Assembly: GCA_016868455.1 (NCBI GenBank)
Contig: VGGV01000001.1
Location: 1-64,000 of the forward strand
Direction of reading: 5' to 3'
Source of the DNA: Bacteroidota bacterium
GTDB taxonomy: Bacteria; Bacteroidota; Bacteroidia; Chitinophagales; Chitinophagaceae
DNA: 64,000 bases
Both the position numbers and the translations under genes were made by a program. Below are positions 14,772 to 61,903 of the stretch, in pieces (the stretch's first letter is position 1; each line of letters begins with the position of its first letter). The notes beneath the pieces were generated by a model. The model had not been told where the DNA came from. It ran no database searches and worked only from the letters and a program-made list of their open reading frames with translations.

Positions 14772-17084
14772 TTAATTAATTTCTATTTCATCAACAAATA
14801 ACCAGGCTTTATGCCCCGCACCCGGGTTGCCGGATGGAATAGAGCCATAGTTGGCAATATTTATTTTTACAAATCTTGCTTGTACCGGTTTTGAAAATTC
14901 ATTAATAGATTCGCTATCTGTAATTATGGGATTTGAGATAGCAACAGGTAAGAAATTTATGCCATCAGCAGAAACAGTAACTGACACTGAGGCAGGTCTG
15001 TATATCCAACTTCCCGCCTGGTGATAGCAATGCACTTTTACAAAAGAAATATTTTCTTCTTTGCCTAAATCAATAGTAGCTATACAATCATCACCACTAA
15101 AGCCCAGAAATTCTTTAGACCTTGCAAGCCCTTTTTCATTTTGCACACCGTTAACTAATGTAAATGCACCGTCACCGGGATAACTATTAGAAGCCTCTTT
15201 TTCTAAAGTTATTTTTTTGCCGGTGGCTTTGTTGAAACAAAATTTTTGCTGAACACCAACCTGTTTACCTGAGGGAGAATAATAGGCGTAGGCTGTACGA
15301 GTTGATTTGGTAATTAGTTGCGGCTGCTTATATTGCCAAATAGAGTCGCCTCCATTAAAATTAATTGTAATAGGATTTGGGAGCTTGCTTTTAAGTTTCC
15401 AGTGAAGGCCATTGAAATTGTCAGTCGGCATCACCGTCGCTTTCAAATCAAAATATGCCTTACTATAATTCGCCTTCCATAAATCATATCTTTTAAATTG
15501 CATCAGCAACCGCTTTTCAAAATCATCCCAGTTCTTATCTTCTTTCTTACTCCATAACACCTCACTCAACGCTGCCATTCGGGGAAAAATCATGTACTCC
15601 ACTTTCTTGGTGTTCTTCATATACTCCGTCCATACATTGGCCTGTGCGCCCAGCACATGTTTGGCCTGTTCAGCAGTTAATGCCGCAGGCACAGGCTCAT
15701 AGGCATATACTTTTTCAATAGGGTTAAAGCCTCCAATCGTTACACTGTCTTCATTTTCACTTTGCGTATGGTCAAAATACACCGGGTTTCCGGGTGTCAT
15801 CACCACATCGTGGTTTTGTTGTGCCGCTTCTATACCGCCCTTTTCGCCCCGCCAGCTCATCACCACGGCATTGGGGGCAAGGCCGCCTTCCAGTATTTCA
15901 TCCCAGCCAATCAGAATTCTTCCCTTGCTGTTCAAATATTTTTCCACCCGCTGGATAAAATAGCTCTGCAGTTCATGTTCATCCTTGAGCTTATTGTCTT
16001 TTATTCTTTTCTGGCAATGCAGGCAGCGGTGCCAGTTTTCCTTGGGGCATTCATCGCCGCCAATATGAATGTACTTTGAAGGAAACAGTGCCAGCACTTC
16101 ATCCAGCACATTTTCGATAAATTGAAAAGTATTTTCCTGTCCGGCACAGAACACATCATTAAACACCCCCCAGGTTTGCTGCACCTGTTTGCCGGTGGTA
16201 TCGCCGTTCCACTTGCATTGTTTGGAAAAGTATTTTATGGTTGGTTCATCAGGAAAACAACTCAGTTCGGGATAGGCAGCAATAGCAGCAGAGGAGTGGC
16301 CGGGCATTTCTATTTCCGGAATGACAGTGATGTAGCGGTCAGCCGCATATTTTACAATCTCTTTGATTTGTTCCTGTGTGTACAAGCCGCCGTATCTTAT
16401 TCCGTCATTGCCGGTACCGGGGTATCGGCCGATGATGGTCCCGTTTCTCCAGCCGCCAACAGCAGTAAGCTTTGGATATTTTTTTATTTCTATGCGCCAG
16501 CCCTGGTCTTCCGTAAGGTGCCAGTGAAATTTATTGAACTTATGCAGGGCGAGGTAATCAATATATTTTTTTATAAAGTCAATGGAAAAGAAATGACGGC
16601 CACAGTCAAGGTGCATGCCGCGGTAGCCAAAGCGGGGGTAATCAGTAATGGTTATCCCCGCAACAATTAGCTTTTGTGCAGGTTGTTTCAGGGCCGGGAG
16701 AAGCTGAATTAATGTTTGCATCCCATAAAACGTTCCGGATGCAGTTTCCCCTGCGATGTACACATTAGTTTTGCCTGCTACCAGATTGTAAGCCCCTTCT
16801 TTACCGGGTACAAGGGTTTCAAGGGTAGTGAACTGAATATAATTATCAGCAGGTGGCGCTTTTACTTTTTTCAGCTTTATTCCGTAAAACCGTTTCAGGT
16901 AGTCATTGAAAAAATTAGCGGTATTATCATCCACAGCATTTATTACTACCAATGATGTGGTGGAAGTAATGGTAAAAGTTCCGGTGCCCCGCTTTACTTC
17001 AACCGGTTGCGGAACGATATTTAGATTCTGGGAATTGGCAGTAAGCGCAATCAGTGTAATAAAAAGGCTTAATTGTAATTTCAT
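14772..17084 (-). CDS. Beta-N-acetylhexosaminidase, GH20
   Basis: A 770-aa secreted enzyme that removes terminal beta-linked GlcNAc/GalNAc from glycans or chitooligosaccharides. It has a signal peptide (LFITLIALTANSQ), a GH20 N-terminal domain (residues about 22-148) and a catalytic barrel from RFGYRGMHLDCGRHF (about 151). The catalytic Asp-Glu pair is in IHIGGDECPKENW (D344-E345), the His-containing HLTEDQGWRIEI is near 189, and VWTEYM follows. The C-terminus carries a chitobiase-type segment and a discoidin-like carbohydrate-binding region (FVKVHCYHQAGSWIYRPASV). It is encoded 11 bp after the CocE-type hydrolase on the same strand, so the two may be cotranscribed. The products fit the NagB fusion at 2.4 kb. 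Confidence 0.95.
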   Translation of the reverse strand: MKLQLSLFITLIALTANSQNLNIVPQPVEVKRGTGTFTITSTTSLVVINAVDDNTANFFNDYLKRFYGIKLKKVKAPPADNYIQFTTLETLVPGKEGAYNLVAGKTNVYIAGETASGTFYGMQTLIQLLPALKQPAQKLIVAGITITDYPRFGYRGMHLDCGRHFFSIDFIKKYIDYLALHKFNKFHWHLTEDQGWRIEIKKYPKLTAVGGWRNGTIIGRYPGTGNDGIRYGGLYTQEQIKEIVKYAADRYITVIPEIEMPGHSSAAIAAYPELSCFPDEPTIKYFSKQCKWNGDTTGKQVQQTWGVFNDVFCAGQENTFQFIENVLDEVLALFPSKYIHIGGDECPKENWHRCLHCQKRIKDNKLKDEHELQSYFIQRVEKYLNSKGRILIGWDEILEGGLAPNAVVMSWRGEKGGIEAAQQNHDVVMTPGNPVYFDHTQSENEDSVTIGGFNPIEKVYAYEPVPAALTAEQAKHVLGAQANVWTEYMKNTKKVEYMIFPRMAALSEVLWSKKEDKNWDDFEKRLLMQFKRYDLWKANYSKAYFDLKATVMPTDNFNGLHWKLKSKLPNPITINFNGGDSIWQYKQPQLITKSTRTAYAYYSPSGKQVGVQQKFCFNKATGKKITLEKEASNSYPGDGAFTLVNGVQNEKGLARSKEFLGFSGDDCIATIDLGKEENISFVKVHCYHQAGSWIYRPASVSVTVSADGINFLPVAISNPIITDSESINEFSKPVQARFVKINIANYGSIPSGNPGAGHKAWLFVDEIEIN

Positions 17085-47391: not shown

Positions 47392-47468
47392 GGACTGATT
47401 CGGGCACAAGTTCTCTATTGCAGACGGAATAAAATAGTTAATCTTTTCCACAAGTGGGGATAGGAAGA

Positions 47469-47577
47469 AGTCGGTAGTCGGTAGTCGATAGTTGTTAGGC
47501 TTCAGATCAGCTGGCAGATATAAATGAAGACTGATAAAAAAACTTAACTAATGACTATTGACTCAGGACTAAAGACT
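47469..47577. repeat. Heptad-word inverted repeat
   Basis: The left arm (47469-47498) is four degenerate 7-nt words of the form GTCNNTA in tandem. The right arm (47543-47577), read on the opposite strand, is five words of the same form. The arms pair imperfectly around a loop of about 45 bp. It lies after the methyltransferase stop, on the way to the transglutaminase-like gene. Confidence 0.7.
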
Positions 47578-48323
47578 CATTTCCTCCTTGCCACCACCAT
47601 CCAGTCCCAGGGTTTGGGTTCTTTCAGCCATTGGGGCGGTTTAATGAATTCAGTGTCCCAGTCGTATTCTATTTTTTGAAATTCTTCTGCAATAAAACCG
47701 GCATCCTGTAGCAGTAATTGCAACTCTTCTTTCAGATAATGTTTGTGCGGCACATCGTCAATATCGGCATTGCCCCTTCGGATATTGTTCCATTTACGAA
47801 GCGCCTCTTTTGCATTTTTTGTAACAGGAAAAAGCGAACGGTCAATTTTATATTGCTGCTGCACAATGCTGGTAAGCAGCCATGATTCCAATGAAGGAAT
47901 GGTGATAATAATACGGCCGCCTTTTTTTACACAGACCTGCAGCGACTGAAAGAAAATATTCCTGTCTTTGGCAGAAGGGGTGAGGATGGCGTTGATGCAA
48001 ATGCCAAAGTCGCATTTGGGAACCTTTGTTTTTCTGCCGCTCATATCGGCCCGCAGGTATTGCACATTTTTGTATTGCGGGTAAAGCTGTGCAGCTGTCT
48101 CCAGGTTTTTGGCTGAAATATCCACTGCTACCACTTTTTTAAAAGCCGGTGCCAGCACGGGCAGCCATTTGCCGATGGCACAGCCGATGTCAATCACTGT
48201 TTTATTTTTGGAAGCATGTTTATTGATAACAGAGCGGATGAGTGCTTTTTTATCGTTATGCAGTACATCAAAAATTTCTTCACCGTAGGAGGGGGCTATT
48301 TTTTCCCAGTAGGAACGTTTCAT
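47577..48323 (-). CDS. Class I SAM-dependent methyltransferase
   Basis: A 248-aa Rossmann methyltransferase. Motif I is VIDIGCAIGKWLPVLAPAF (SAM-binding GxGxG variant GCAIG), followed by VVAVDISAKNLETAA, YLRADMS and CDFGICINAILTPS, with the post-motif strand GGRIIITIPSLESWL. The C-terminus ends DWMVVARRK. The substrate cannot be predicted. Its neighbour upstream is the degraded toxin-antitoxin locus, and its end touches a heptad-word inverted repeat. Confidence 0.85.
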   Translation of the reverse strand: MKRSYWEKIAPSYGEEIFDVLHNDKKALIRSVINKHASKNKTVIDIGCAIGKWLPVLAPAFKKVVAVDISAKNLETAAQLYPQYKNVQYLRADMSGRKTKVPKCDFGICINAILTPSAKDRNIFFQSLQVCVKKGGRIIITIPSLESWLLTSIVQQQYKIDRSLFPVTKNAKEALRKWNNIRRGNADIDDVPHKHYLKEELQLLLQDAGFIAEEFQKIEYDWDTEFIKPPQWLKEPKPWDWMVVARRK

Positions 48324-48332
48324 AGGAAATGG

Positions 48333-48590
48333 TTAATCATATTTATCTTTTCTGTCGCCCACTGCAATAATTTCTATAATGAGCATTTTATCATAAATAT
48401 CGTAGATAATTCTGAAAACACCTTTGCGAATGCGGTCACCATCTCTTCCTCGTAGCTTTCTGCACCTATGCGGGAGGGGATTCAGAGAAAGATTATAATA
48501 GTTTCAATAAGAGTTTCTGCAACCGGGGTCGGGTAACTTATCTAATTGCTTTTGTGCCGTTCAGGTGATAGGTATCTGGTACTCAGGCAT
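48333..48590 (-). pseudogene. RelE/ParE-family toxin, degraded
   Basis: On the minus strand, ATGCCTGAG starts MPEYQIPIT, then a TGA, then TAQKQLDKLPDP. After a frameshift comes VAETLIETIIIF, and after further damage RGRDGDRIRKGVFRIIYDIY and DKMLIIEIIAVGDRKDKYD with TAA. This is the full RelE pattern: the KQLDKLP helix, GRDxxRIRKGxxRIIY and a GDRKDxY end. It has at least one stop and two frameshifts, so no toxin can be made. The start overlaps the antitoxin end by 8 bp. Confidence 0.8.
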
Positions 48591-48795
48591 GTTTTTTACA
48601 GCGGCGCTGGAGGTATCGGTTGAATGGAATAGTTTTTTCTTTTTTTGCTTTCACGGCATCATACATCCTGATATCTTCCAGCTCTTCGAGTTCAGACAGC
48701 AGTTTTTTATACTCGGCAATGGAAATTACCACCGAGAGTTTTTCCCCTTTTTTGTCGGTTATGTAGTGTGGTGTTCTTTTAGCTAAGATTTTCAT
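48583..48795 (-). CDS. Phd/YefM-type antitoxin, solitary
   Basis: A 70-aa protein, MKILAKRTPHYITDKKGEKL, then SVVISIAEYKKLLSELEELE and DIRMYDAVKAKKEKTIPF. The first half is the antitoxin DNA-binding/dimer fold (TDKKGEKLSVVISIAEYKKLL), and the second is the acidic-to-basic helix that wraps around a RelE-type toxin. The partner toxin gene directly after it is degraded, so this antitoxin has outlived its target. It may still autoregulate or neutralise related toxins elsewhere. Confidence 0.7.
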   Translation of the reverse strand: MKILAKRTPHYITDKKGEKLSVVISIAEYKKLLSELEELEDIRMYDAVKAKKEKTIPFNRYLQRRCKKHA

Positions 48796-48860
48796 ATTGC
48801 CAAGATACGAATTTTATTTCAGCTATTTTTCCAGATATCTCTTAGCTTGTACTTTACTGA

Positions 48861-51455
48861 CTATTTTTTCTTCGCAGCCTTCTTCTTTACTGCAGCTTTC
48901 TTGGTTGAAACCTTTTTAGTTGCAGCCTTTTTTGCGGTGACCTTTTTCCCCTTCTTTGCAAATGCTCCCGGCATCGCAGCTTCTATAAAATTCTTAACCT
49001 GTTCTAATGTAAAGGCAGCGGCATCTTCAGCCGTGTATTTGGTATCATCCGCTTTCTTGGGCAGGCGGATTATTTTTTTACCGTATTTGATAATGGGTCC
49101 CCAGCGGGCATTCTCCACCAATATTTTTTCTTCCGCCCATTGATGGATATAGCGGCCGGCCTCTTTCTTAATTTTGGCTTCTATCAGTTCATTCATCTCC
49201 GCCTGGGTAAGTTTGGCGAAATTGTACCGCCTCGGAACATTGATGAACATGCCATTCCATTTTATGTAAGGCCCGAACCGCCCGCTGCCTTTGGTAACCG
49301 GTTTTCCGTCAAAAGTTCCTACAGGCGCAGCTGCAATCTGCTTGGCCTTTATATGCTTTATGGCTTTTTCAAAATCAACAGTACCAAGATCAGTGCCTTT
49401 CGGTAACGAAATAAACTCTTCGCCCCATTTTACATAAGGTCCAAAACGTCCTACGTTAACCGATACATCCTTGCCTTCATATTGCCCCATGCTGCCCTGT
49501 GCGCCAAACAGGTTCATGGCTTCTTCAAAACTGATGGTCTCAATGCTCTGACCGGTTGGTATTTTGGCAAACCTTGGTTTTTCCTCATCGGTCGCTTCTC
49601 CAATCTGTATCATGGCGCCATAGCGTCCCATTCTTGCCACCACAGGTTTACCGGTTTCAGGATCAATACCCAGTTCCCTTTCACCAGTGGCCCTTTCGGC
49701 TTTCTCAATGGTTTTCTCCACATCCTTTTTGAAAGGGTCGTAAAAATCCCTGATCATGGCATTCCACTTCATCTTGCCTTCGGCCACTTCATCAAACTCC
49801 TCTTCAATTCGGGCTGTAAAGCCATAGTCCATGATGTCGTCAAAATATTTGTTCAGGAAATCGGTGACCACTAAACCAAGATCAGACGGAAAAAGTTTTG
49901 ACTTCTCGGCGCCGGTCATTTCGCTGTCCAGTTTTTTATTCACCTGGTCATTCCTCAGCGAATAAACGGTGTAAAAGTGCTGCACACCTTCCTTGTCCCT
50001 TTTCTCCACATAACCTCTTTTGAGAATGGTGGAGATGGTAGGTGCATAAGTGGAGGGACGGCCGATACTGAGTTCTTCCAGCTTTTTTACCAGGGAGGCT
50101 TCCGTATATCTTGCCGGAGGGCGGCTGAACCGTTCTGTTGCTTTCATTTCATTCAGCGGCAGCTGCTGATCAACGGTCAATGGTGGCAACATACCCCCGT
50201 TTGCTTCTTCTTCCAGTTCATCTTCGTCTTTATCTTCCCGGTACACTTTCAGAAAGCCGTCAAATTTCAATACTTCGCCGCTGGCAGTAAGTTCTTCCCG
50301 GTTGGTGGATATTTCAATTTTGGCGGTGGTTTTCTCCAATTCAGCATCAGCCATCTGGCAGGCCATGGTTCTTTTCCAGATCAGTTCATACAATCTTGCC
50401 CAATCCTGTTCCGGCACCGAAGTATTGCTCATAAAGGTGGGCCTTATCGCTTCATGGGCTTCCTGTGCCGCTTCATTTTTATTTTTGTATTTGCGGAACT
50501 GGTGGTATTGCCCGCCATAAATGCTCTTTACTGTGCTGGTAATATCGCCGAGTGCCGTATTACTTAAATTCACACTGTCCGTACGCATGTAAGTGATGTA
50601 ACCATTCTCATACAGCTTTTGGGCTATCAGCATGGTACGGGAAACACCGTACCCCAATTTTCTCGATGCTTCCTGCTGCAGGGTGGAAGTGGTAAAAGGC
50701 GGCGCCGGGCTGCGCTTGCCGGGCCTTACCTGTATGTCGGTGACTTTGTAGTTTGCGTCAATGCAGCTCTTTAAAAAACTTTCTGCATCTTCCGATGAAT
50801 CCTGTTTTTTGCCTTCAGCGGTGAAGGTTACATTTTTAGCTGAAACATCTTTGGCGGTGAACTGTGCCTCTATTTTAAATGTGCTGACCGCTGTAAAAGC
50901 GTTGATTTCTCTTTCCCGCTCAACAATTAAGCGCACTGCCACACTTTGCACCCTGCCGGCGCTCAAATTATTTCTTACGCTGATTTTACGCCAGAGTACC
51001 GGGCTCAGTTCAAAACCAACAATACGGTCAAGAATGCGGCGGGCCTGCTGCGCCATTACCAGGTTCATGTCCACCCGGCGGGGGTTTTCCACAGCTTCTT
51101 TGATGGCAGGTTTGGTGATTTCATGAAAAACGATCCGTTTAGTTTTTTTTGAGTCAAGTCCCAGTACTTCGCAAAGATGCCAGCTGATGGCTTCGCCTTC
51201 CCGGTCCTCATCCGTGGCCAGCCACACTTCATCGGATTTGTCAGCCAGTTTTTTTAATTCATTCACCACTTTTTCCTTATCGGCGGGTACAATATAAGTG
51301 GGCTGAAAGTTTTTTTCAATATTGATGCCCATATCGGCCTTTTCCAGGTCACGGATATGGCCAAAACAACTTTTTACCTGGAAATCTTTTCCCAGGATCT
51401 TTTCAATTGTTTTCGCTTTCGCAGGGCTTTCGACTATCAGTAAGTTTTTCGCCAT
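48861..51455 (-). CDS. topA: DNA topoisomerase I
   Basis: A 864-aa type IA topoisomerase that relaxes negative supercoils. The Toprim domain starts MAKNLLIVESPAKAKTIEK and carries ATDEDREGEAISWHL. The catalytic Tyr is in ENGYITYMRTDSVNLS. The C-terminal part has three TopoI-C repeats with GRFGPYVKWGEE and GRFGPYIKWNG. The last 25 residues are almost only Lys and Ala with Thr/Val, a basic tail that replaces zinc-ribbon domains in this phylum. I chose the start two codons into the reading frame at MAKN. Confidence 0.96.
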   Translation of the reverse strand: MAKNLLIVESPAKAKTIEKILGKDFQVKSCFGHIRDLEKADMGINIEKNFQPTYIVPADKEKVVNELKKLADKSDEVWLATDEDREGEAISWHLCEVLGLDSKKTKRIVFHEITKPAIKEAVENPRRVDMNLVMAQQARRILDRIVGFELSPVLWRKISVRNNLSAGRVQSVAVRLIVEREREINAFTAVSTFKIEAQFTAKDVSAKNVTFTAEGKKQDSSEDAESFLKSCIDANYKVTDIQVRPGKRSPAPPFTTSTLQQEASRKLGYGVSRTMLIAQKLYENGYITYMRTDSVNLSNTALGDITSTVKSIYGGQYHQFRKYKNKNEAAQEAHEAIRPTFMSNTSVPEQDWARLYELIWKRTMACQMADAELEKTTAKIEISTNREELTASGEVLKFDGFLKVYREDKDEDELEEEANGGMLPPLTVDQQLPLNEMKATERFSRPPARYTEASLVKKLEELSIGRPSTYAPTISTILKRGYVEKRDKEGVQHFYTVYSLRNDQVNKKLDSEMTGAEKSKLFPSDLGLVVTDFLNKYFDDIMDYGFTARIEEEFDEVAEGKMKWNAMIRDFYDPFKKDVEKTIEKAERATGERELGIDPETGKPVVARMGRYGAMIQIGEATDEEKPRFAKIPTGQSIETISFEEAMNLFGAQGSMGQYEGKDVSVNVGRFGPYVKWGEEFISLPKGTDLGTVDFEKAIKHIKAKQIAAAPVGTFDGKPVTKGSGRFGPYIKWNGMFINVPRRYNFAKLTQAEMNELIEAKIKKEAGRYIHQWAEEKILVENARWGPIIKYGKKIIRLPKKADDTKYTAEDAAAFTLEQVKNFIEAAMPGAFAKKGKKVTAKKAATKKVSTKKAAVKKKAAKKK

Positions 51456-51602
51456 ATTCACATTAAATTTTGCGTATTACAACGCTGTTCAGCGGCCGCA
51501 AATTGGGGGCAAGGATAGGGATTTTTTTTGAAACGAATTTTTGTACCGGTTAGATGGTTGTTTTTCAAAGCAGAAATACGGGAGATATTTCGTTGTATTC
51601 GG

Positions 51603-52328
51603 TTACATTTTTGCTTTAAAATAACCGGCGACAGCTTTTGCCCAGCGGTTATAATCTTTCCCGGAAGGGTGCAGCCCGTCGGTGGCTAATAAGGTAAGAT
51701 CGGTTGCCGCCTCTCTTGTCCACGGAGTGATATCTATATAATATACATTGTAACGCATGGCAATTTCTTTGCTGGCAGCATTATAGACATCAATTGCTCT
51801 TGCTATCTGTTCTTTGTCCCTGCCCTCTGCAAAAGGAGTAACACCCCAGTCGGGAATAGAAAGCACCACCACTCTTTCTGGCCTGTTAGCTGCATAATGG
51901 ATCGCTTTTTTCAGCAACGCTTCAAATTCGGGTTTATAATTTTCAACTGAACGGCCACGGTACTGGTTGTTCACACCGATGAGCAATGAAACAAAATCAT
52001 ATTTCGCCAGCAAGGGTGTTGCATTGTTAGCGGAAACAATACCTTCTTCCAGTTCATCAGTTGTCCACCCTGTTCGGGCAATGATACGGGTCTCAACAAC
52101 TGATGTGTCTGTTTTCAGCATGGCGGCAGCCTGGCTGGGAAAATTATCCTGTGGGGTCACCGATTCACCGATTGTGTACGAATCACCAAGGGCGAGGTAC
52201 TGGTATTTTTTTGCTGATGAAGGTGGTGGCATGGTATCTGTAATGGAAAAATACAAACTGTCCGTGCCCTTTTTGGAGCAGGAACTGCTGCAAGTAAGGA
52301 AAAAAAGTATTGCAAAGATGTTCTTCAT
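51603..52328 (-). CDS. SGNH/GDSL hydrolase lipoprotein
   Basis: A 241-aa lipoprotein with signal FAILFFLTCSSSC. The SGNH blocks are YLALGDSYTIGESV (Ser nucleophile), RIIARTGWTTDEL (Gly), SLLIGVNNQYRG (Asn) and LATDGLHPSGKDY (Asp-His). It is a lipase/esterase or carbohydrate esterase facing the periplasm. The substrate is not known. Its ATGA overlaps the stop of the upstream alpha/beta hydrolase gene, so the two are coupled. Confidence 0.9.
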   Translation of the reverse strand: MKNIFAILFFLTCSSSCSKKGTDSLYFSITDTMPPPSSAKKYQYLALGDSYTIGESVTPQDNFPSQAAAMLKTDTSVVETRIIARTGWTTDELEEGIVSANNATPLLAKYDFVSLLIGVNNQYRGRSVENYKPEFEALLKKAIHYAANRPERVVVLSIPDWGVTPFAEGRDKEQIARAIDVYNAASKEIAMRYNVYYIDITPWTREAATDLTLLATDGLHPSGKDYNRWAKAVAGYFKAKM

Positions 52329-53167
52329 AAAAAATCAACAATTGATTTGACCACTTTACTATCCCGGTAAATGCGGCGGTGGCCCAGTCCTTTTGTAATT
52401 ACGAATTCAATGTTCGGGTGGTTTTCTGCTTTTACTTTTAGTGCATCTTTGATTGGGGTGGTATCATCGTCTTCATCATGCAGCCACAATACTTTGGCCC
52501 GGAGATGCTTCATGGCCCTGCTGATGGAATACCAGGCAGGGCTGACACCCCCGTTTTTGATTATTACTTTATCAAACTCAGAACGGATGGCCGGGTCAAG
52601 TTTCAGAAAGTTGAAAAAAGTATCAATGGCGGTAGTGGTTTCAGTTACCGGTGCTATTAATACAAGCCGGTAATCCGCCGTATGGCTTATTTCTTCCAGC
52701 GCCAGGCAAACAGCGAGTCCGCCGAATGAATGAGCCGTATAAGATTGTACCGGCCCGAATTTTTTGTTAATCTCCAGGATCGTCCTTTTATAAAACGGTG
52801 CAGTAATTTGCCTGCCGCCGCTTCTGCCATGTGCCGGAGCATCAAAAGCCAGTACTTCATATCCTTTTCTTATCAGAGGCCTGATATAACGGTCGAAGTT
52901 CACAACGGTAGACTCAAATCCATGTAATATCAGCGCTTTTCTTCCGGCCGGGTGGTTCCATCGACAGCCTTGTATCATAAGGCCATTTATTTTCAATTGC
53001 AGTTTTTCTGCTTCGTCAAATATTTTAGGCGGTTTTCTAAGATTTCTTTTCTGCGGGGTACAGAAAAGTTTAAAAGCCCTTTCGGCAGCTTTCTTTTTGG
53101 AGATGGCAGAAAGAAATTTGAATTTTGTACGGATGTAGCTTAAAGCAAGTTTTTGAGATAATTTCAT
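52325..53167 (-). CDS. Alpha/beta hydrolase
   Basis: A 280-aa alpha/beta-hydrolase. The N-terminus SQKLALSYIRTKFKFLSAIS has no clear signal. HGFESTVVNFDRYIRPLIRK and VLAFDAPAHGRSGG precede the nucleophile elbow SYTAHSFGGLAVCLAL (Ser in HSFGG). Asp is in LWLHDEDDDTTPI and His in KGLGHRRIYRD. It is the first gene of a two-gene unit with the SGNH lipoprotein. The substrate is unknown. Confidence 0.88.
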   Translation of the reverse strand: MKLSQKLALSYIRTKFKFLSAISKKKAAERAFKLFCTPQKRNLRKPPKIFDEAEKLQLKINGLMIQGCRWNHPAGRKALILHGFESTVVNFDRYIRPLIRKGYEVLAFDAPAHGRSGGRQITAPFYKRTILEINKKFGPVQSYTAHSFGGLAVCLALEEISHTADYRLVLIAPVTETTTAIDTFFNFLKLDPAIRSEFDKVIIKNGGVSPAWYSISRAMKHLRAKVLWLHDEDDDTTPIKDALKVKAENHPNIEFVITKGLGHRRIYRDSKVVKSIVDFL

Positions 53168-53267
53168 TGAAACAAAAATAAGTCACACTGACTGCTTTAA
53201 GGAATTTTCCATATCTCCCCTTTAGGGGAATAAGGAATATTGTTAATTTGAAAAACTATCTGGGGGT

Positions 53268-54029
53268 ATGGACATTGTCATCATCGGTTCCGGAAATGTG
53301 GCTGCTGTGCTGGGACGAAAATTCAAAGCAGCAGGCCACCATATTTTGCAGATATACAGCCGTAATGCTTCAGCAGCTTCCCAGCTTGCCTATGAATGGG
53401 ATACCGAGTCCACCAATTATAAAAGCCTGATCAATCCCTATGCAGATATTTACATTGTGGCGGTAACTGATGATGCCATTGATGATATAACAAAGGATTT
53501 ATTACTGCCCGGCAAAGTGGTGGCGCATACGGCGGCATCGGTGCCCAAAGAAGTATTAAAAAATGTTACATCTCATTACGGCGTTTTTTATCCACTTCAG
53601 AGTTTACGGAAGGAAATGACTATTGTGCCGGATGTGCCGGTTTTTTTTGACGGGAGCGATGAGACTTCCAGAAAAAAACTGGAAGCGCTGGCCCGTTCCA
53701 TTTCCAGCGAGAATGTAACAGAGGCCGGCGATGATGCCCGGCTGAAACTGCATGCGGCTGCTGTAGTGGTCAGCAATTTCACCAATCATTTGTATCAACT
53801 GGCGGAAGATTATTGCAATAAGGAGGGGCTTGATTTTAAGCAATTGCTTCCCCTTATCGAAGAAACGGCCTTGCGGCTAAAGACTATCTCACCGGCGGCT
53901 GTACAAACCGGCCCGGCCATCCGGCATGATAAGGAAACCATACAGAAACACCTTGGCCTGCTGAAAGATCACCCGCAGCTGAAAAACATTTACCTTCTTT
54001 TAACGGAAAGCATCCAGCAGGGTAATTGA
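53268..54029 (+). CDS. DUF2520 Rossmann-fold protein
   Basis: A 253-aa protein of the DUF2520/Rossmann-like family, similar in fold to F420-dependent NADP reductases and pyrroline-carboxylate reductase. The cofactor motif is MDIVIIGSGNVAAVLGRKFK. Further segments are YIVAVTDDAIDDI, VVAHTAASVPKEVL, YGVFYPLQSLRK and LHAAAVVVSNFTNHLYQLA. The family's reaction is not established. It begins a plus-strand run with ferredoxin and iscX. A small CCCC-TTTA-GGGG hairpin lies in the upstream spacer. Confidence 0.88.
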   Translation: MDIVIIGSGNVAAVLGRKFKAAGHHILQIYSRNASAASQLAYEWDTESTNYKSLINPYADIYIVAVTDDAIDDITKDLLLPGKVVAHTAASVPKEVLKNVTSHYGVFYPLQSLRKEMTIVPDVPVFFDGSDETSRKKLEALARSISSENVTEAGDDARLKLHAAAVVVSNFTNHLYQLAEDYCNKEGLDFKQLLPLIEETALRLKTISPAAVQTGPAIRHDKETIQKHLGLLKDHPQLKNIYLLLTESIQQGN

Positions 54030-54070
54030 TTCTTTTCCCGAACAAGTAAGTGCCTTTTTTGTTTATCTGC

Positions 54071-54078
54071 TACATTTG
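54071..54078 (+). promoter_or_regulatory. Candidate -7 box for the ferredoxin gene
   Basis: TACATTTG matches TAnnTTTG exactly. A start near 54085 would leave about 19 nt before ATG at 54104. No well-spaced TTTG is seen upstream. Confidence 0.4.
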
Positions 54079-54103
54079 CACTCCCCAAAGACAAGCACAG
54101 GAA

Positions 54104-54439
54104 ATGTTTACGGTAAAATTCAACTTTGAACAGAAAGGACTGGAACCCATCACCCTTGAAAATGTGGAAGCGGGGCAAAGCCTGCTGGAACTGGCGCTGA
54201 AGAACGATATTGAGCTTCACCATAACTGCGGAGGTGTGTGCGCCTGCACTACCTGCCATCTGTATGTGGAAAAGGGAATGGAGCATATTGATGAACTGAG
54301 CGACAGGGAAGAAAATTTTATTGACCGGGCGGTAAACCCGAAACTGAATTCAAGACTGGGCTGCCAGTCGCTGTTGCTTGAGGGCAGTGGTGAGATTGAA
54401 GTAACTTTACCCGACCAGACGCAATTCCTGGGAGAATAA
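54104..54439 (+). CDS. fdx: 2Fe-2S ferredoxin, ISC/adrenodoxin type
   Basis: A 111-aa ferredoxin starting MFTVKFNFEQKG. The cluster ligands are in NCGGVCACTTCHLYV (Cys-x5-Cys-x2-Cys, with an extra Cys in between as in E. coli Fdx), and the fourth Cys is in RLGCQSLLL. DELSDREENFID is the typical acidic helix region. It gives electrons for Fe-S cluster assembly. The neighbour iscX supports that. A longer in-frame ATG at 54050 would add an unrelated hydrophobic stretch. Confidence 0.93.
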   Translation: MFTVKFNFEQKGLEPITLENVEAGQSLLELALKNDIELHHNCGGVCACTTCHLYVEKGMEHIDELSDREENFIDRAVNPKLNSRLGCQSLLLEGSGEIEVTLPDQTQFLGE

Positions 54440-54443
54440 AACC

Positions 54444-54517
54444 GAAGTAAGAGGCCAGAAGTAAGAAGTCTGAATTCCGGCCTCCGATATCATACATCAG
54501 ACTTCTGACTTCCGATT
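54444..54517. repeat. Heptad-word inverted repeat between fdx and iscX
   Basis: The strongest pairing is GAAGTAAGAAGTCTGA (54458-54473) with TCAGACTTCTGACTTC (54497-54512), 15 of 16 matched. Both arms, and the loop, break into 7-nt words of the form GAAGTNN and GANNNNN. It ends just before the iscX start codon. Confidence 0.7.
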
Positions 54518-54518
54518 T

Positions 54519-54758
54519 ATGAGCCAATTTGAACCTCCGATACACTGGAACGATTATGAAGACATTGCCCTGAAACTCTATGATCGCTTCGGTGATGATT
54601 TCAATGAAGGAAAAATTTACCGCATCCGCTTTACCGACCTGCTGGAGTGGGTATTGCAGATTCCCGGCTTTGCCGGAAAAAGGGAAGAATGTAATGAAGG
54701 GCACCTGGAAATGATACAGAGCGCCTGGGTGTATGAGTGGAGGGATAACCAGAAGTGA
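54519..54758 (+). CDS. iscX: IscX-like Fe-S assembly protein
   Basis: A 79-aa acidic protein, IHWNDYEDIALKLYDRFGDD, then KIYRIRFTDLLEWVLQIPGF and EGHLEMIQSAWVYEW. The WxDxxxIALxLYD opening, RFTDLxxWV middle and LExIQxxWxxEW end are the IscX/YfhJ pattern. IscX binds IscS and iron and adjusts cluster assembly. It follows the ferredoxin gene in the same direction. Confidence 0.88.
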   Translation: MSQFEPPIHWNDYEDIALKLYDRFGDDFNEGKIYRIRFTDLLEWVLQIPGFAGKREECNEGHLEMIQSAWVYEWRDNQK

Positions 54759-54788
54759 TTTCAGAGTTACGAATTCAGATTGCAGTTT
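54757..54788 (+). repeat. Short heptad-word tract after iscX
   Basis: Four 7-nt words of the form GANTNCA-like sequence (GATTTCA, then GAGTTAC and similar) start in the iscX stop codon. A weak partner, TGCAATGAGA, lies about 10 bp on. It could be a degraded member of the heptad-word repeats. Confidence 0.35.
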
Positions 54789-54836
54789 TATTCTGCTGCA
54801 ATGAGATTAAAAACATCCGCCTTAAGCCTGCTAACA

Positions 54837-55358
54837 ATGAACGTACTTGAACTTTTTAAACCCATCAGGGCCTTTATTTTTGATTTGGATGGGGTGCTTA
54901 CTGACGGCACCGTGCTGGTGGTGGCAAACGGCCTGCAGGCAAGGAAGATGAGCATCAAAGACGGGTTTGCCATACAAATGGCATTGAAAATGGGGTACAG
55001 GGTCAAGATTATTTCCGGGGGTCATTCTCCGGAATTGCAGGACCGGCTGGAAAAACTGGGAGTAAAAGATATAAGCATGTCTGTGCCGGACAAGAAGAAA
55101 TTAATAACAGAGTTCATTACAGGTAAAAAACTGAAGCAGGAGCAGGTTTTGTATATGGGCGATGATCTGCCCGATATTCCCGCTCTCGGAGCAGTGGGGC
55201 TGGCCTGCTGCCCTGCTGATGCAGCCGGTGAGGTAAAAGAAGCTGTGCAATATATTTCTCCCTATAAGGGAGGCGACAACTGTGTAAGGGATGTAATTGA
55301 AAAAGTGCTGAAGCTGAATGACCACTGGCAGTACAGGGTGGATGTGACTTCAAGATAA
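54837..55358 (+). CDS. kdsC: 3-deoxy-D-manno-octulosonate 8-phosphate phosphatase-like HAD hydrolase
   Basis: A 173-aa type C0 HAD phosphatase. The nucleophile motif is FIFDLDGVLTDGTVLV (DxD), followed by MSIKDGFAIQMALKMGYRVK, IISGGHSPELQDRLEKLGV and MGDDLPDIPALGAVGLACCP (motif IV), then AVQYISPYKGGDNCVRDVIE. This is the KdsC pattern, which makes Kdo for lipopolysaccharide. N-acylneuraminate-9-phosphatase-type paralogues look similar, so the substrate is likely rather than certain. Upstream in-frame ATG codons at 54780 and 54801 give a non-conserved extension. Confidence 0.9.
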   Translation: MNVLELFKPIRAFIFDLDGVLTDGTVLVVANGLQARKMSIKDGFAIQMALKMGYRVKIISGGHSPELQDRLEKLGVKDISMSVPDKKKLITEFITGKKLKQEQVLYMGDDLPDIPALGAVGLACCPADAAGEVKEAVQYISPYKGGDNCVRDVIEKVLKLNDHWQYRVDVTSR

Positions 55359-55364
55359 ATACCT

Positions 55365-55467
55365 GTTTAATGTTTAAGGTTTAAAGTTTAATGTTTTAGT
55401 TTTGGGAATATAAGCCGGATGAAGTCGTTAACCTGAAACATTAAACCTTCAACTTCAAACTTTTTTT
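55365..55467. repeat. Heptad-word inverted repeat between kdsC and the UbiA-family gene
   Basis: The left arm (55365-55397) is five tandem words of the form GTTTAAN or GTTTNAN. The right arm (55435-55460), read on the other strand, is four words of the same type (GTTTGAA, GTTGAAG and two more). A run of seven T (55461-55467) follows at once and ends one base before the ATG of the next gene, so it also looks like an intrinsic terminator. Confidence 0.75.
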
Positions 55468-55468
55468 C

Positions 55469-56392
55469 ATGAGATTGATAGCCGCCTTCCTTAAACTGGT
55501 GCGACTGCCCAATCTTTTTTTTCTGGCGCTGACACAGGTACTTTTCCAGGTTTGTATTTATTATCCCTTATATAAAGACCGGGTTCCTGCAGAAGATCTT
55601 ACCCGGTTCATCCTGCTTGTGTTTGCTTCGCTGTTCATCGCTACAGCCGGTTACATCATTAACGATTATTTTGATATCAATATTGATGAAGTAAACAAGC
55701 CACGGCGGATGGTGGTGGATAAGGTTATTCACCGCCGCTGGGCCATTGCCTGGCATTTTATGCTGAGCGGGGCCGGTATCATCCTTACAGTGCTGGCATT
55801 ACCCTTTTTGCAGAAATGGTACCTGGTACTGGCAAATATCCTTTGTGTGGCCCTGCTCTGGTTCTATTCCACCAATTTTAAAAAAAGCCTGCTCACCGGT
55901 AATATTGTTATCTCACTGCTTACGGCATGGACCATACTCATCATCTTTTTTTCCAAGGTGGATCTTTCTGATGCAGTCAGCCCGGATCATTCCCGTTTTT
56001 TCAGACTTGCCATATTATATGCGGGATTTGCCTTTATCATCTCGCTCATCCGGGAAGCCATTAAAGACATGGAAGATATGCCCGGCGATGCTAAATATGG
56101 TTGCCGTACCATGCCCATCGTTTGGGGGGTAAATGCCACCAAAGTATATGCAGCCGTTTGGCTGGTGGTGCTTATTGCCATTCTCCTCATTCTGCAGGTT
56201 TATGTACTGCAATTCAAATGGTGGCTTGCTGTGGCATACAGTGTGCCTGCGATCATATTCCCGCTGACTGTTATTTTGTTTAAGCTGAAGAACAGTAATA
56301 CAACTGAACAGTTTCATACACTGAGCAGCCTGACAAAACTGGTAATGCTAACCGGGATACTTTCTATGCTTATCTTTTATTATTATCCATGA
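55469..56392 (+). CDS. UbiA-family prenyltransferase (geranylgeranylglycerol-phosphate synthase-like)
   Basis: A 307-aa membrane enzyme with eight or nine helices. The first aspartate motif is GYIINDYFDINIDEVNKP (NDYFDxxxD) and the second is IREAIKDMEDMPGDAKYG (DMEDxxGD). These are the polyprenyl-diphosphate binding sites of UbiA enzymes. Related proteins in Bacteroidota are named geranylgeranylglycerol-phosphate geranylgeranyltransferase, but their product is not firmly known. The stop overlaps the maf start by 4 bp (ATGA), so the two are coupled. Confidence 0.88.
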   Translation: MRLIAAFLKLVRLPNLFFLALTQVLFQVCIYYPLYKDRVPAEDLTRFILLVFASLFIATAGYIINDYFDINIDEVNKPRRMVVDKVIHRRWAIAWHFMLSGAGIILTVLALPFLQKWYLVLANILCVALLWFYSTNFKKSLLTGNIVISLLTAWTILIIFFSKVDLSDAVSPDHSRFFRLAILYAGFAFIISLIREAIKDMEDMPGDAKYGCRTMPIVWGVNATKVYAAVWLVVLIAILLILQVYVLQFKWWLAVAYSVPAIIFPLTVILFKLKNSNTTEQFHTLSSLTKLVMLTGILSMLIFYYYP

Positions 56393-56955
56393 TGAATAAA
56401 ATAATCCTTGCTTCACAGTCGCCAAGAAGAAAACAACTGCTGGAATGGGCTGAAGTGCCTTTTGAAGTCATCGTTAAAGAAACTGACGAATATTTTTCTC
56501 CCGGTATAGCGCCGGAAGAAGCGGCATTATACATTGCCCGCAACAAAGCTGCTGCTGTGCAGGAAGCAGCGGGCGGCAGGGTGGTGCTGGCGGCCGACAC
56601 TATTGTGGTACTGGGTGACCATATCATCGGCAAACCAGTGCACAGGGAAGATGCAATAAGCATGCTGCTGGCTTTGCAGGGTGAAAAACACCGGGTGATA
56701 ACTGGTGTAGTAATACTACAGGGTGAAAAAGAAATTGCATTTACGGATGTAACAGAAGTGGAATTTCATGAGCTCAGCGAAGAACAGATAGAATATTATG
56801 TTGACAAATACAAACCTTACGACAAGGCCGGCGCCTATGCCATACAGGAATGGATCGGTGTGGTGGGCATAAAATCCATCACAGGAGATTTTTACAATGT
56901 GATGGGATTGCCCGTGAGCAGGGTGGTGGGGGAGTTAGAAAAGGTAATTGGTTAA
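56389..56955 (+). CDS. maf: Maf-family nucleotide pyrophosphatase
   Basis: A 188-aa Maf/Ham1-superfamily enzyme that hydrolyses non-canonical or regular nucleoside triphosphates. The motifs are IILASQSPRRKQLLEWAEV (SxSPRR), KETDEY, ARNKAAAV, VLAADTIVVLGDHIIGKP, HRVITGVV and YDKAGAYAIQEWIGVVGIKS, ending with NVMGLPVSRV. It follows the UbiA-family gene with ATGA overlap. A second ATG at 56392 is also possible. Confidence 0.94.
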   Translation: MMNKIILASQSPRRKQLLEWAEVPFEVIVKETDEYFSPGIAPEEAALYIARNKAAAVQEAAGGRVVLAADTIVVLGDHIIGKPVHREDAISMLLALQGEKHRVITGVVILQGEKEIAFTDVTEVEFHELSEEQIEYYVDKYKPYDKAGAYAIQEWIGVVGIKSITGDFYNVMGLPVSRVVGELEKVIG

Positions 56956-57040
56956 TTGGTATATTAGTAATCAGGCTTCTAACTCATTGAGGGCATTAAT
57001 GCTTTGGTGAATCTCCTGATTAACTAATTAACCTGTTAAC
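56943..57040. repeat. Word-built inverted repeat between maf and the DUF2851 gene
   Basis: The left arm runs from about 56943 to 56975 and the right arm from 57015 to 57040. Both end on CCTGATTA-type sequence next to the loop, and both consist of 7-8-nt words of GTTAAT/GGTAAT type. The left arm covers the last codons of maf. Word length is less regular than in the other members. Confidence 0.6.
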
Positions 57041-57043
57041 TAT

Positions 57044-60914: not shown

Positions 60915-61903
60915 GAAAATTTTTATTTATAGTAATTATTAATTATTTATTAGTAATTATTACTTCTTACAATGTCTTTGCACAATTAAAGTGGCAGAAT
61001 GTAGATTCCCTGTTCCAGCCGCTGCCTCCTGCGGTACATGTGTATAAAACCACGGAACCGCTGGATGGAAAGCCTAATGTTGCTTATTATGTTGAAGTGG
61101 ATTTGAAAGACAGGAAACTTGATTTTACTGTTGATACTACATACAAGAGAAGATTAACCCCGGCTGCATTTTATGAAAAGAACGACAGGCCGCTGCTGGT
61201 GGTGAACACCACATTTTTTTCTTTCGCCACCCACCAAAATCTGAATGTGGTGATAAAGGATAAAAAGCTGGTTGGCTATAATGTTCATACGATACCGGGA
61301 AGAGGAAAGGACACATTTACTTACCGCCATCCCTGGGGGAGCGCCATAGGAATTTCCAAGGAAAGAGAAGCTGATATTGGATGGCTGGTTACTGATTCAT
61401 CGTGGAAGTATCCGTTTGCTTCTCAGTTGTCAAAATGGGTGATTAAAGATTCATCTGTATTCTTTGATACAAGAAAAGCCAGAAAAGACCACACCCCGCT
61501 ATTTCTTGGTGGGGTCTCAAAAATTGAAAAATGGAAAATGCAAACCGCAGTCGGCGGCGGTCCTGTTCTTCTGCAAAACGGTGAAATTAAAATCACCAAC
61601 AATGAAGAATTAAAGTTTGCCGGTAAAGCCATTGATGATAAACATCCCCGCACAGCAATGGGTTACACAAGTGACAATAAACTCATCATACTCGTAATAG
61701 AAGGCCGTAACCCTGGCAAAGCCGAAGGCGCCACACTTACACAGGAAGCACAAATATTAAAGGACCTTGGCAGTTGGGAGGCTTTAAACCTTGACGGAGG
61801 TGGAAGCAGTTGTATGCTGGTGAACGGAAAAGAAACTATCAAGGTTTCAGATGCCGGTGGGCAGCGACCGGTGCCTGCGGTTTTTATCATCCGGAAAAAA
61901 TAA
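60911..61903 (+). CDS. Phosphodiester glycosidase (NAGPA-domain) family protein, exported
   Basis: A 330-aa protein with an N-terminal signal ([20 protein letters not shown]) and a NAGPA domain, the fold of the uncovering enzyme that removes GlcNAc from phosphodiesters. Typical segments are [61 protein letters not shown] and [20 protein letters not shown]. It is translationally coupled to lipA (ATGA), which is unusual, since their roles have no clear link. The substrate is not known. Confidence 0.9.

Follow-up and report, generated by a model that had tools for sequence, protein, structure and literature searches.

Inverted repeats with arms of 7- or 8-nt words in Chitinophagaceae spacers: possible RNA hairpins at cistron junctions

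Repetitive extragenic palindromes and bacterial interspersed mosaic elements (REP/BIME) and miniature inverted-repeat transposable elements (MITE) are short intergenic palindromes that occur as dispersed copies of one sequence, and the cyanobacterial short tandemly repeated repetitive (STRR) heptads have a period of 7 in common with the elements described below, to which they are likened on period alone. A closer precedent is found in Xanthomonas, whose GGGAATC heptads are intergenic and heterogeneous (GGGANTN), with GGGGA(C/T)T in Nostoc; the portions of Rehm 2015 (PMC4692102) available to us place the Xanthomonas heptads mostly between codirectional genes (16% convergent, 7-8% divergent), describe large variation in length and sequence when two species are compared, for the most part at shared genes, and count 70 and 75 inverted heptad pairs in convergent orientation in two Xanthomonas genomes. 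TAACTGA direct repeats occur in Beggiatoaceae, Cyanobacteria and five Bacteroidetes, and Bacteroidetes spacers also hold 'other heptamer direct repeats' (MacGregor 2015, PMC4679880, in the sections available). Heptad repeats are further the subject of a Calothrix report (as cited in the available part of PMC4692102), and heptanucleotide long simple sequence repeats (Mrazek 2007, as cited in the available texts) are again likened to the present elements by their period alone. The elements analysed here are inverted repeats whose arms consist of tandem 7- or 8-nt words, found at four gene boundaries in the first 64 kb of contig 1 (VGGV01000001.1) of a Bacteroidota bacterium assembly (GCA_016868455.1; 2.64 Mb, 64 contigs). 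This whole 64-kb stretch is referred to as the window; the nearest named relatives of the source genome carry the Chitinophagaceae label.

As far as the accessible parts of Rehm 2015 describe them, the Xanthomonas heptads are like these elements in being intergenic 7-nt units with variable positions, a codirectional bias and inverted pairs, and the Xanthomonas pairs appear to be G-first like those here, that is, with the G-type arm 5'. They differ in consisting of a single G-rich, quadruplex-capable word, whereas here the words are many and mostly AT-rich, a period of 8 also occurs and words change at orthologous spacers. Compared feature by feature, we thus recovered the 7-nt intergenic period and the paired G-first arrays of the Xanthomonas type, but not a single GGG quadruplex word. 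The TAACTGA repeats are likewise heptads in spacers by start or stop codons, some of them present in one species and missing from a relative, but they comprise one fixed word in direct arrays, with one inverted case among the 170 sets of the main genome in the sections of MacGregor 2015 available. An earlier note on this DNA knew of no described element class of this definition, a view that the inverted heptad pairs of Xanthomonas do not support; literature searches for elements of this kind showed none, among the papers listed, beyond Rehm 2015, MacGregor 2015 and the works cited with them. As far as these searches show, what is new relative to the Xanthomonas precedent comprises the rule of polarity, a sister class with period 8 and the exchange of words.

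Inverted repeats with periodic arms are real and occur more widely than at the four window sites. Across 2,025 spacers of the source genome and related Chitinophagaceae genomes, 36 spacers held a period-7 and 31 a period-8 inverted repeat, versus averages of 0.05 and 0.0 over 20 shuffles that preserved dinucleotides; the shuffling check proposed in the earlier note thus left next to none of the heptad-periodic repeats. Periods 5, 6, 9, 10 and 11 gave counts of 1, 0, 9, 3 and 3 in the same set, and a separate count by period returned 43 with period 7 and 34 with period 8, the octad class being nearly as common. In the 1.66 Mb of source genome sampled (63%), 82 lag-7 tracts scoring at least 20/28 were found, and a single second-order Markov copy had 0; lags divisible by neither 3 nor 7 gave 0 to 11 tracts. 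Lag-7 tracts scoring at least 18 were present in 86 of 1,109 source-genome spacers, with lags 4 to 13 giving 4 to 21, and no period-7 or period-8 inverted repeats were found in 200 kb of E. coli K-12. Within the window, the 7-nt-word inverted repeats first noticed at three boundaries passed the period-7 scan (20, 19 and 23 of 28 positions complementary at sites 1, 2 and 3), and the fourth boundary, described earlier as carrying words of 7-8 nt, has period 8 (20/28); a weak tract reported at 54757 fell below the lag-7 and lag-8 threshold. As a side observation, one relative (L193, Pinibacter aurantiacus) is very dense in such tracts, with 12 lag-7 tracts in 21 kb.

Relatives were drawn from a search of 58 genomes, the source genome included, with the UbiA gene (55 matches, 30 loci retained), and from a further 80 loci with flanks that were the best 80 of 567 in a named-genome collection. 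The inverted-repeat surveys excluded from the relatives L116 and L117, which duplicate L087 and L088, and the counts of periodic inverted repeats, tracts and word similarity excluded low-complexity arms and tracts. Source-genome spacer sets were limited by length, to at most 300 nt including flanks in one case (954 of 1,109 kept) and to at most 400 nt in another. The survey cut was 20 of 28 complementary positions, so that window site 2 (19/28) lies outside the 72 periodic inverted repeats considered below.

These 72 repeats have a consistent polarity. G exceeded C in the 5' arm of 63, C exceeded G in 5 and 4 were tied; the rule also held in convergent spacers (10:1) and was absent from 56 non-periodic inverted repeats (26:24), controls that were drawn only from spacers of 45-300 nt. 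Held-out stretches of two genomes of the same family were G-first 12:0 with 2 ties (n = 14), and in the held-out G225, a more distant genome of the same class, periods 7 and 8 were G-first 8:3 with 1 tie; the distant genome G182 gave 1:1, and the stretch of G178 had none of these repeats. Lone arrays, read outward from the nearer gene, followed the same chirality 75:37. When 65 periodic repeats were mapped to spacers, 51 were codirectional, 11 convergent and 3 divergent, which is a depletion of divergent spacers (3/65 vs 461/2,025 in the background; odds ratio 0.16, p = 1e-4) with no excess of convergent ones (11/65 vs 262/2,025), while 28 of the 56 non-periodic inverted repeats were convergent. 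Median distances from the arms to the adjoining genes are 10 and 8 nt, in a long-tailed distribution (75th percentiles 56 and 46).

Different species can hold a different word at one orthologous place. The AGAAGTN hairpin of the source genome between its ferredoxin and Fe-S assembly genes (site 2) is also present in L089, L091, L092, L096/L127, L097, L119 and L121, while other species have, as read from the alignment listing, GAGCTNY (L087, L120, L157), GAGTTGY (L088), AATGTGA (L094), AAACYCC (L131), AAACAAC (L156), TTGGTTC (L101) or period-8 words (L128, L166, L172, L194), and in many of the remoter relatives the gap is short and plain. Comparison of orthologous spacers, which the earlier note had also proposed, recovered the structures in some of the species, the word often being a different one. 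Over 17 kb, L120 and L121 share 91.9% identity, and their ferredoxin spacer is swapped whole from stop to start codon between flanks that are 94-97% identical; in L095 and L127 (about 90% identical), both this spacer and the Maf-DUF2851 spacer differ. In L118, L124 and L125 the ferredoxin spacer holds an unrelated palindrome, a CTCCTAAAAGGGAG-type palindrome with CCCTTTAGGG that also occupies the next spacer of L087 and is alike in sequence between species. Separately, the sister genomes L158 and L164 carry wholly different arrays of ~24-nt units at alignment columns 16315-16476.

Absence of shared sequence between sites, as first described, holds for long copies but not for the words themselves. 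Matches outside the spacer itself (E<1e-3) were found for 31 of 73 source-genome heptad spacers, a search limited to spacers of at most 260 nt (73 of 86 kept) in 63% of the genome; the best matches were 20-80 nt long and covered less than half of every spacer longer than 100 nt. The words of the four window sites differ and none is a TAACTGA direct array, and words vary widely within one genome. Words nevertheless recur across sites and genomes, similar word pairs being 2 to 8 times as frequent as column-permuted ones (one permutation). GTNAATN in three copies was present in 77 of 296 genomes, the source genome included. The reversed pattern TAANTGN is an unclean null for that search, being itself a TAACTGA-type word of other Bacteroidota families; its frequency in three copies in some of these families is an observation in its own right, namely that TAACTGA-type heptads occur there. 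A common architecture without long shared sequence is accordingly borne out to some degree.

The reading we tentatively prefer, with a probability of roughly 0.45, is that these repeats are predicted intercistronic RNA hairpins that were born locally by slippage and fold-back and then kept for their shape at cistron junctions. Judging from their anatomy, slippage would first have made tandem duplicates of a 7- or 8-nt unit in the gap behind a stop codon, and fold-back (strand-switch) copying would then have yielded the second, inverted arm. Arms can be near-perfect although their units differ among themselves (28/28 at L156:2100 and at L252:10738), which points to inverted copying, and the lack of long non-self copies of heptad spacers argues for local birth; local generation by strand-switching or slippage, one of the earlier proposals, is thus upheld to some degree, the matches elsewhere being short. 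Exact-register copying of arms as a general rule was weak, with mirrored unit order best in 56 of 82 repeats against ~59% by chance, counted over repeats whose arms have at least three distinct units each. In a second step the hairpin would be retained for shape at the junction of two cistrons, its arms near-fixed while the loop drifts. Its likely job would be to give structure to untranslated intercistronic RNA. When the G-type arm leads, the arm rich in C and poor in G would be made second, paired at once and hidden from Rho and nucleases; a candidate reason for the polarity is that such a C-rich, G-poor arm would attract Rho if it were the first to emerge behind a stop codon. For the E. coli gal operon, the part of PMC9239205 available describes Rho-dependent termination at an intercistronic site. 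The idea that the tracts supply stop codons in all three frames found no support (71 of 133 tracts vs 73.8, sd 4.7, for column-permuted words); stop codons on both strands were slightly raised (5.31 per tract vs 4.82, sd 0.19).

Constraint on the arms is evident from alignment of one species pair and partly of a second, and is not general. In the spacer between the HAD-type and UbiA genes (site 3), the source genome and L094 share 68 of 70 arm positions (split by arm in Table 1) and 18 of 31 loop positions; in four adjacent genes, identity at third codon positions is 0.43 to 0.59. In the ferredoxin spacer, the arms are 28/29 and 16/16 identical to those of L091 (44/45) and the middle 19/24. 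Pairing is in register, with 91% of cells paired versus 34-48% after sliding. Selection for an RNA shape, the other earlier proposal, is to that degree supported by the L094 comparison and in part by that with L091, but not by four others.

Several results weigh against this reading. At the ferredoxin spacer the arms were less well kept than the middle relative to L119 (33/45 vs 20/24), L121 (35/45 vs 22/24), L097 (32/45 vs 20/24) and L096 (21/45 vs 17/24), and the comparison with L089 gave 25/29 and 14/22 (39/51) for the arms vs 15/24 for the middle. Covariation was weak: changes on both sides of a helix were seen in 2 of 16 pairs, a value reached in 29 of 500 shuffles, for helices chosen visually and with the aid of the predicted fold. 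The mirrored unit order given above is clear in the best cases but weak overall. In G225, the 8:3 chirality of periods 7 and 8 is accompanied by four period-9 repeats with the reverse tendency (1:3), and the twelve lone arrays situated over 60 nt away from the nearer gene break the rule (3:9). Since many orthologous spacers lack the hairpin, it is dispensable at any single place, and since the sampled genomes are kin, the p-values are optimistic.

A wider formulation, which we regard as unlikely, would make these elements a cross-phylum class of cistron-junction hairpins that share rules in place of a sequence: tandem words of 7 or 8 nt, G 5' and C 3' on either strand, a place after stop codons, avoidance of divergent spacers and free replacement of words. 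Polarity would then derive from strand-polar making, in which a G-type array folds back and is copied, or from hiding a C-rich Rho-loading arm, so that structure persists while sequence turns over. If true, there would be intergenic elements identified by shape and a polarity rule, and thus missed by ordinary repeat and RNA-family searches. Chirality, the strong preference for periods 7 and 8 and whole-spacer swaps open two questions to testing, namely the reason for the seven-letter bias of simple repeats in bacteria and the way in which Bacteroidota operon junctions are protected or regulated.

The repeats could instead be neutral mutational hot spots, produced by 7-8-nt slippage and fold-back template switching in unconstrained gaps and without function, their placement reflecting the intolerance of promoters in divergent spacers; we consider this doubtful yet a genuine contender. 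Among de-duplicated units, variation is distributed across columns as chance predicts (388 without variation vs 377 expected), presence is patchy and words turn over at orthologous spacers, and four of the six ferredoxin-spacer comparisons show arms no better kept than the middle. The bacterial excess of heptads has, moreover, been ascribed to polymerase slippage (Mrazek 2007, as cited in the available parts of PMC4679880 and PMC4692102), and L021 carries a long, almost perfect CTTGTAC array (16601-16778) that is probably a recent expansion. Against this stand the arms shared with L094 next to a diverged loop and diverged third codon positions, and simple slippage does not predict the G-first chirality.

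It seems improbable that the repeats serve as arrays recognised by an RNA- or DNA-binding protein at one unit per 7-8 nt, in the manner of TRAP, which reads GAG-type triplets set at a fixed spacing. The 5' arms do share a soft word with one G per unit: 62 of 72 have a conserved G column, and arms anchored on the most conserved such column follow approximately G-N-T-W-A-T-N-N, clearly in period 8 and loosely in period 7. Runs of 12 chosen cores also occurred at a spacing of 7 or 8 and at none of 6, 9, 10 or 11, a biased result given that the cores were taken from heptad tracts. Against such arrays stands the wide variation of words within one genome. A fixed five-letter core with two free letters under selection was dropped, as duplicated multi-unit blocks had inflated its signal, which vanished on de-duplication; the ratio of transitions to transversions in non-coding DNA between L120 and L121 (53:58) is moreover not far from that among units (293:418).

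Mobile repeats of the MITE or REP kind, or cassettes passed between species by spacer recombination, would explain why spacers are swapped whole, with sharp borders, between genomes 92% identical and why distant species have similar alleles. Near-identical full-length dispersed copies, the hallmark of REP/BIME and MITE, were not found in the 63% of the source genome searched, non-self matches being confined to the partial ones described above, and the loop shared with L094 has diverged where the arms have not. We hold this explanation to be highly improbable.

Few of the hairpins resemble intrinsic transcription terminators, and that explanation has next to no probability: a T run lies behind the 3' arm at site 3, alone among the four window sites, so that the earlier suggestion that some repeats act as terminators has that one instance in its favour, but not as a general rule, since T runs follow the 3' arm in 3 of 72 repeats and lie at the opposite end in 1 of 72, versus 9/85 and 8/85 of non-periodic inverted repeats drawn from spacers of 45-300 nt, and the convergent excess of the latter is missing.

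The arms at the four window sites are listed in Table 1, together with the 28-nt arms returned by the periodic inverted-repeat scan.

Table 1. Arms of the periodic inverted repeats in the window
Feature	Position	Strand	Scan arm	Context
Site 1 arm, AGTC-type heptads	47462..47498	no strand	47465-47492	adjoins start of transglutaminase-like gene (- strand)
Site 1 other arm, GACT-type heptads	47548..47585	no strand	47554-47581	runs into 3' end of methyltransferase gene (- strand)
Site 2 5' arm, AGAAGTN heptads	54436..54473	+	54442-54469	begins at ferredoxin stop codon
Site 2 3' arm, GACTTCN heptads	54483..54520	+	54487-54514	reaches start codon of Fe-S assembly gene
Site 3 5' arm, GTTTAAN heptads	55365..55402	+	55369-55396	behind HAD-type gene; 39/39 identical in L094
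Site 3 3' arm	55430..55463	+	55436-55463	T run next, then UbiA start codon; 29/31 identical in L094
Site 4 5' arm, GTTAATTG-type octads (period 8)	56940..56967	+	56940-56967	overlaps Maf gene end
Site 4 3' arm	57016..57043	+	57016-57043	ends at DUF2851 start codon

Genes around sites 2 to 4 encode a 2Fe-2S ferredoxin, an Fe-S assembly protein (PF04384), a HAD-type hydrolase, a UbiA prenyltransferase, Maf and DUF2851, and both genes that flank the site 1 spacer lie on the - strand. A search of the window with Rfam at the gathering score returned one tRNA and matched none of the sites. RNA folding z-scores for the + strand were -4.9, -2.8, -1.5 and -4.5 at sites 1 to 4, the genes at site 1 being on the - strand. 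A general repeat finder recovered the inverted repeats of sites 2 and 3 and missed those of sites 1 and 4. Elsewhere in the window, a lag-7 stretch with a weak inverted partner (18/28) lies at the start of a coding region (60917-60975).

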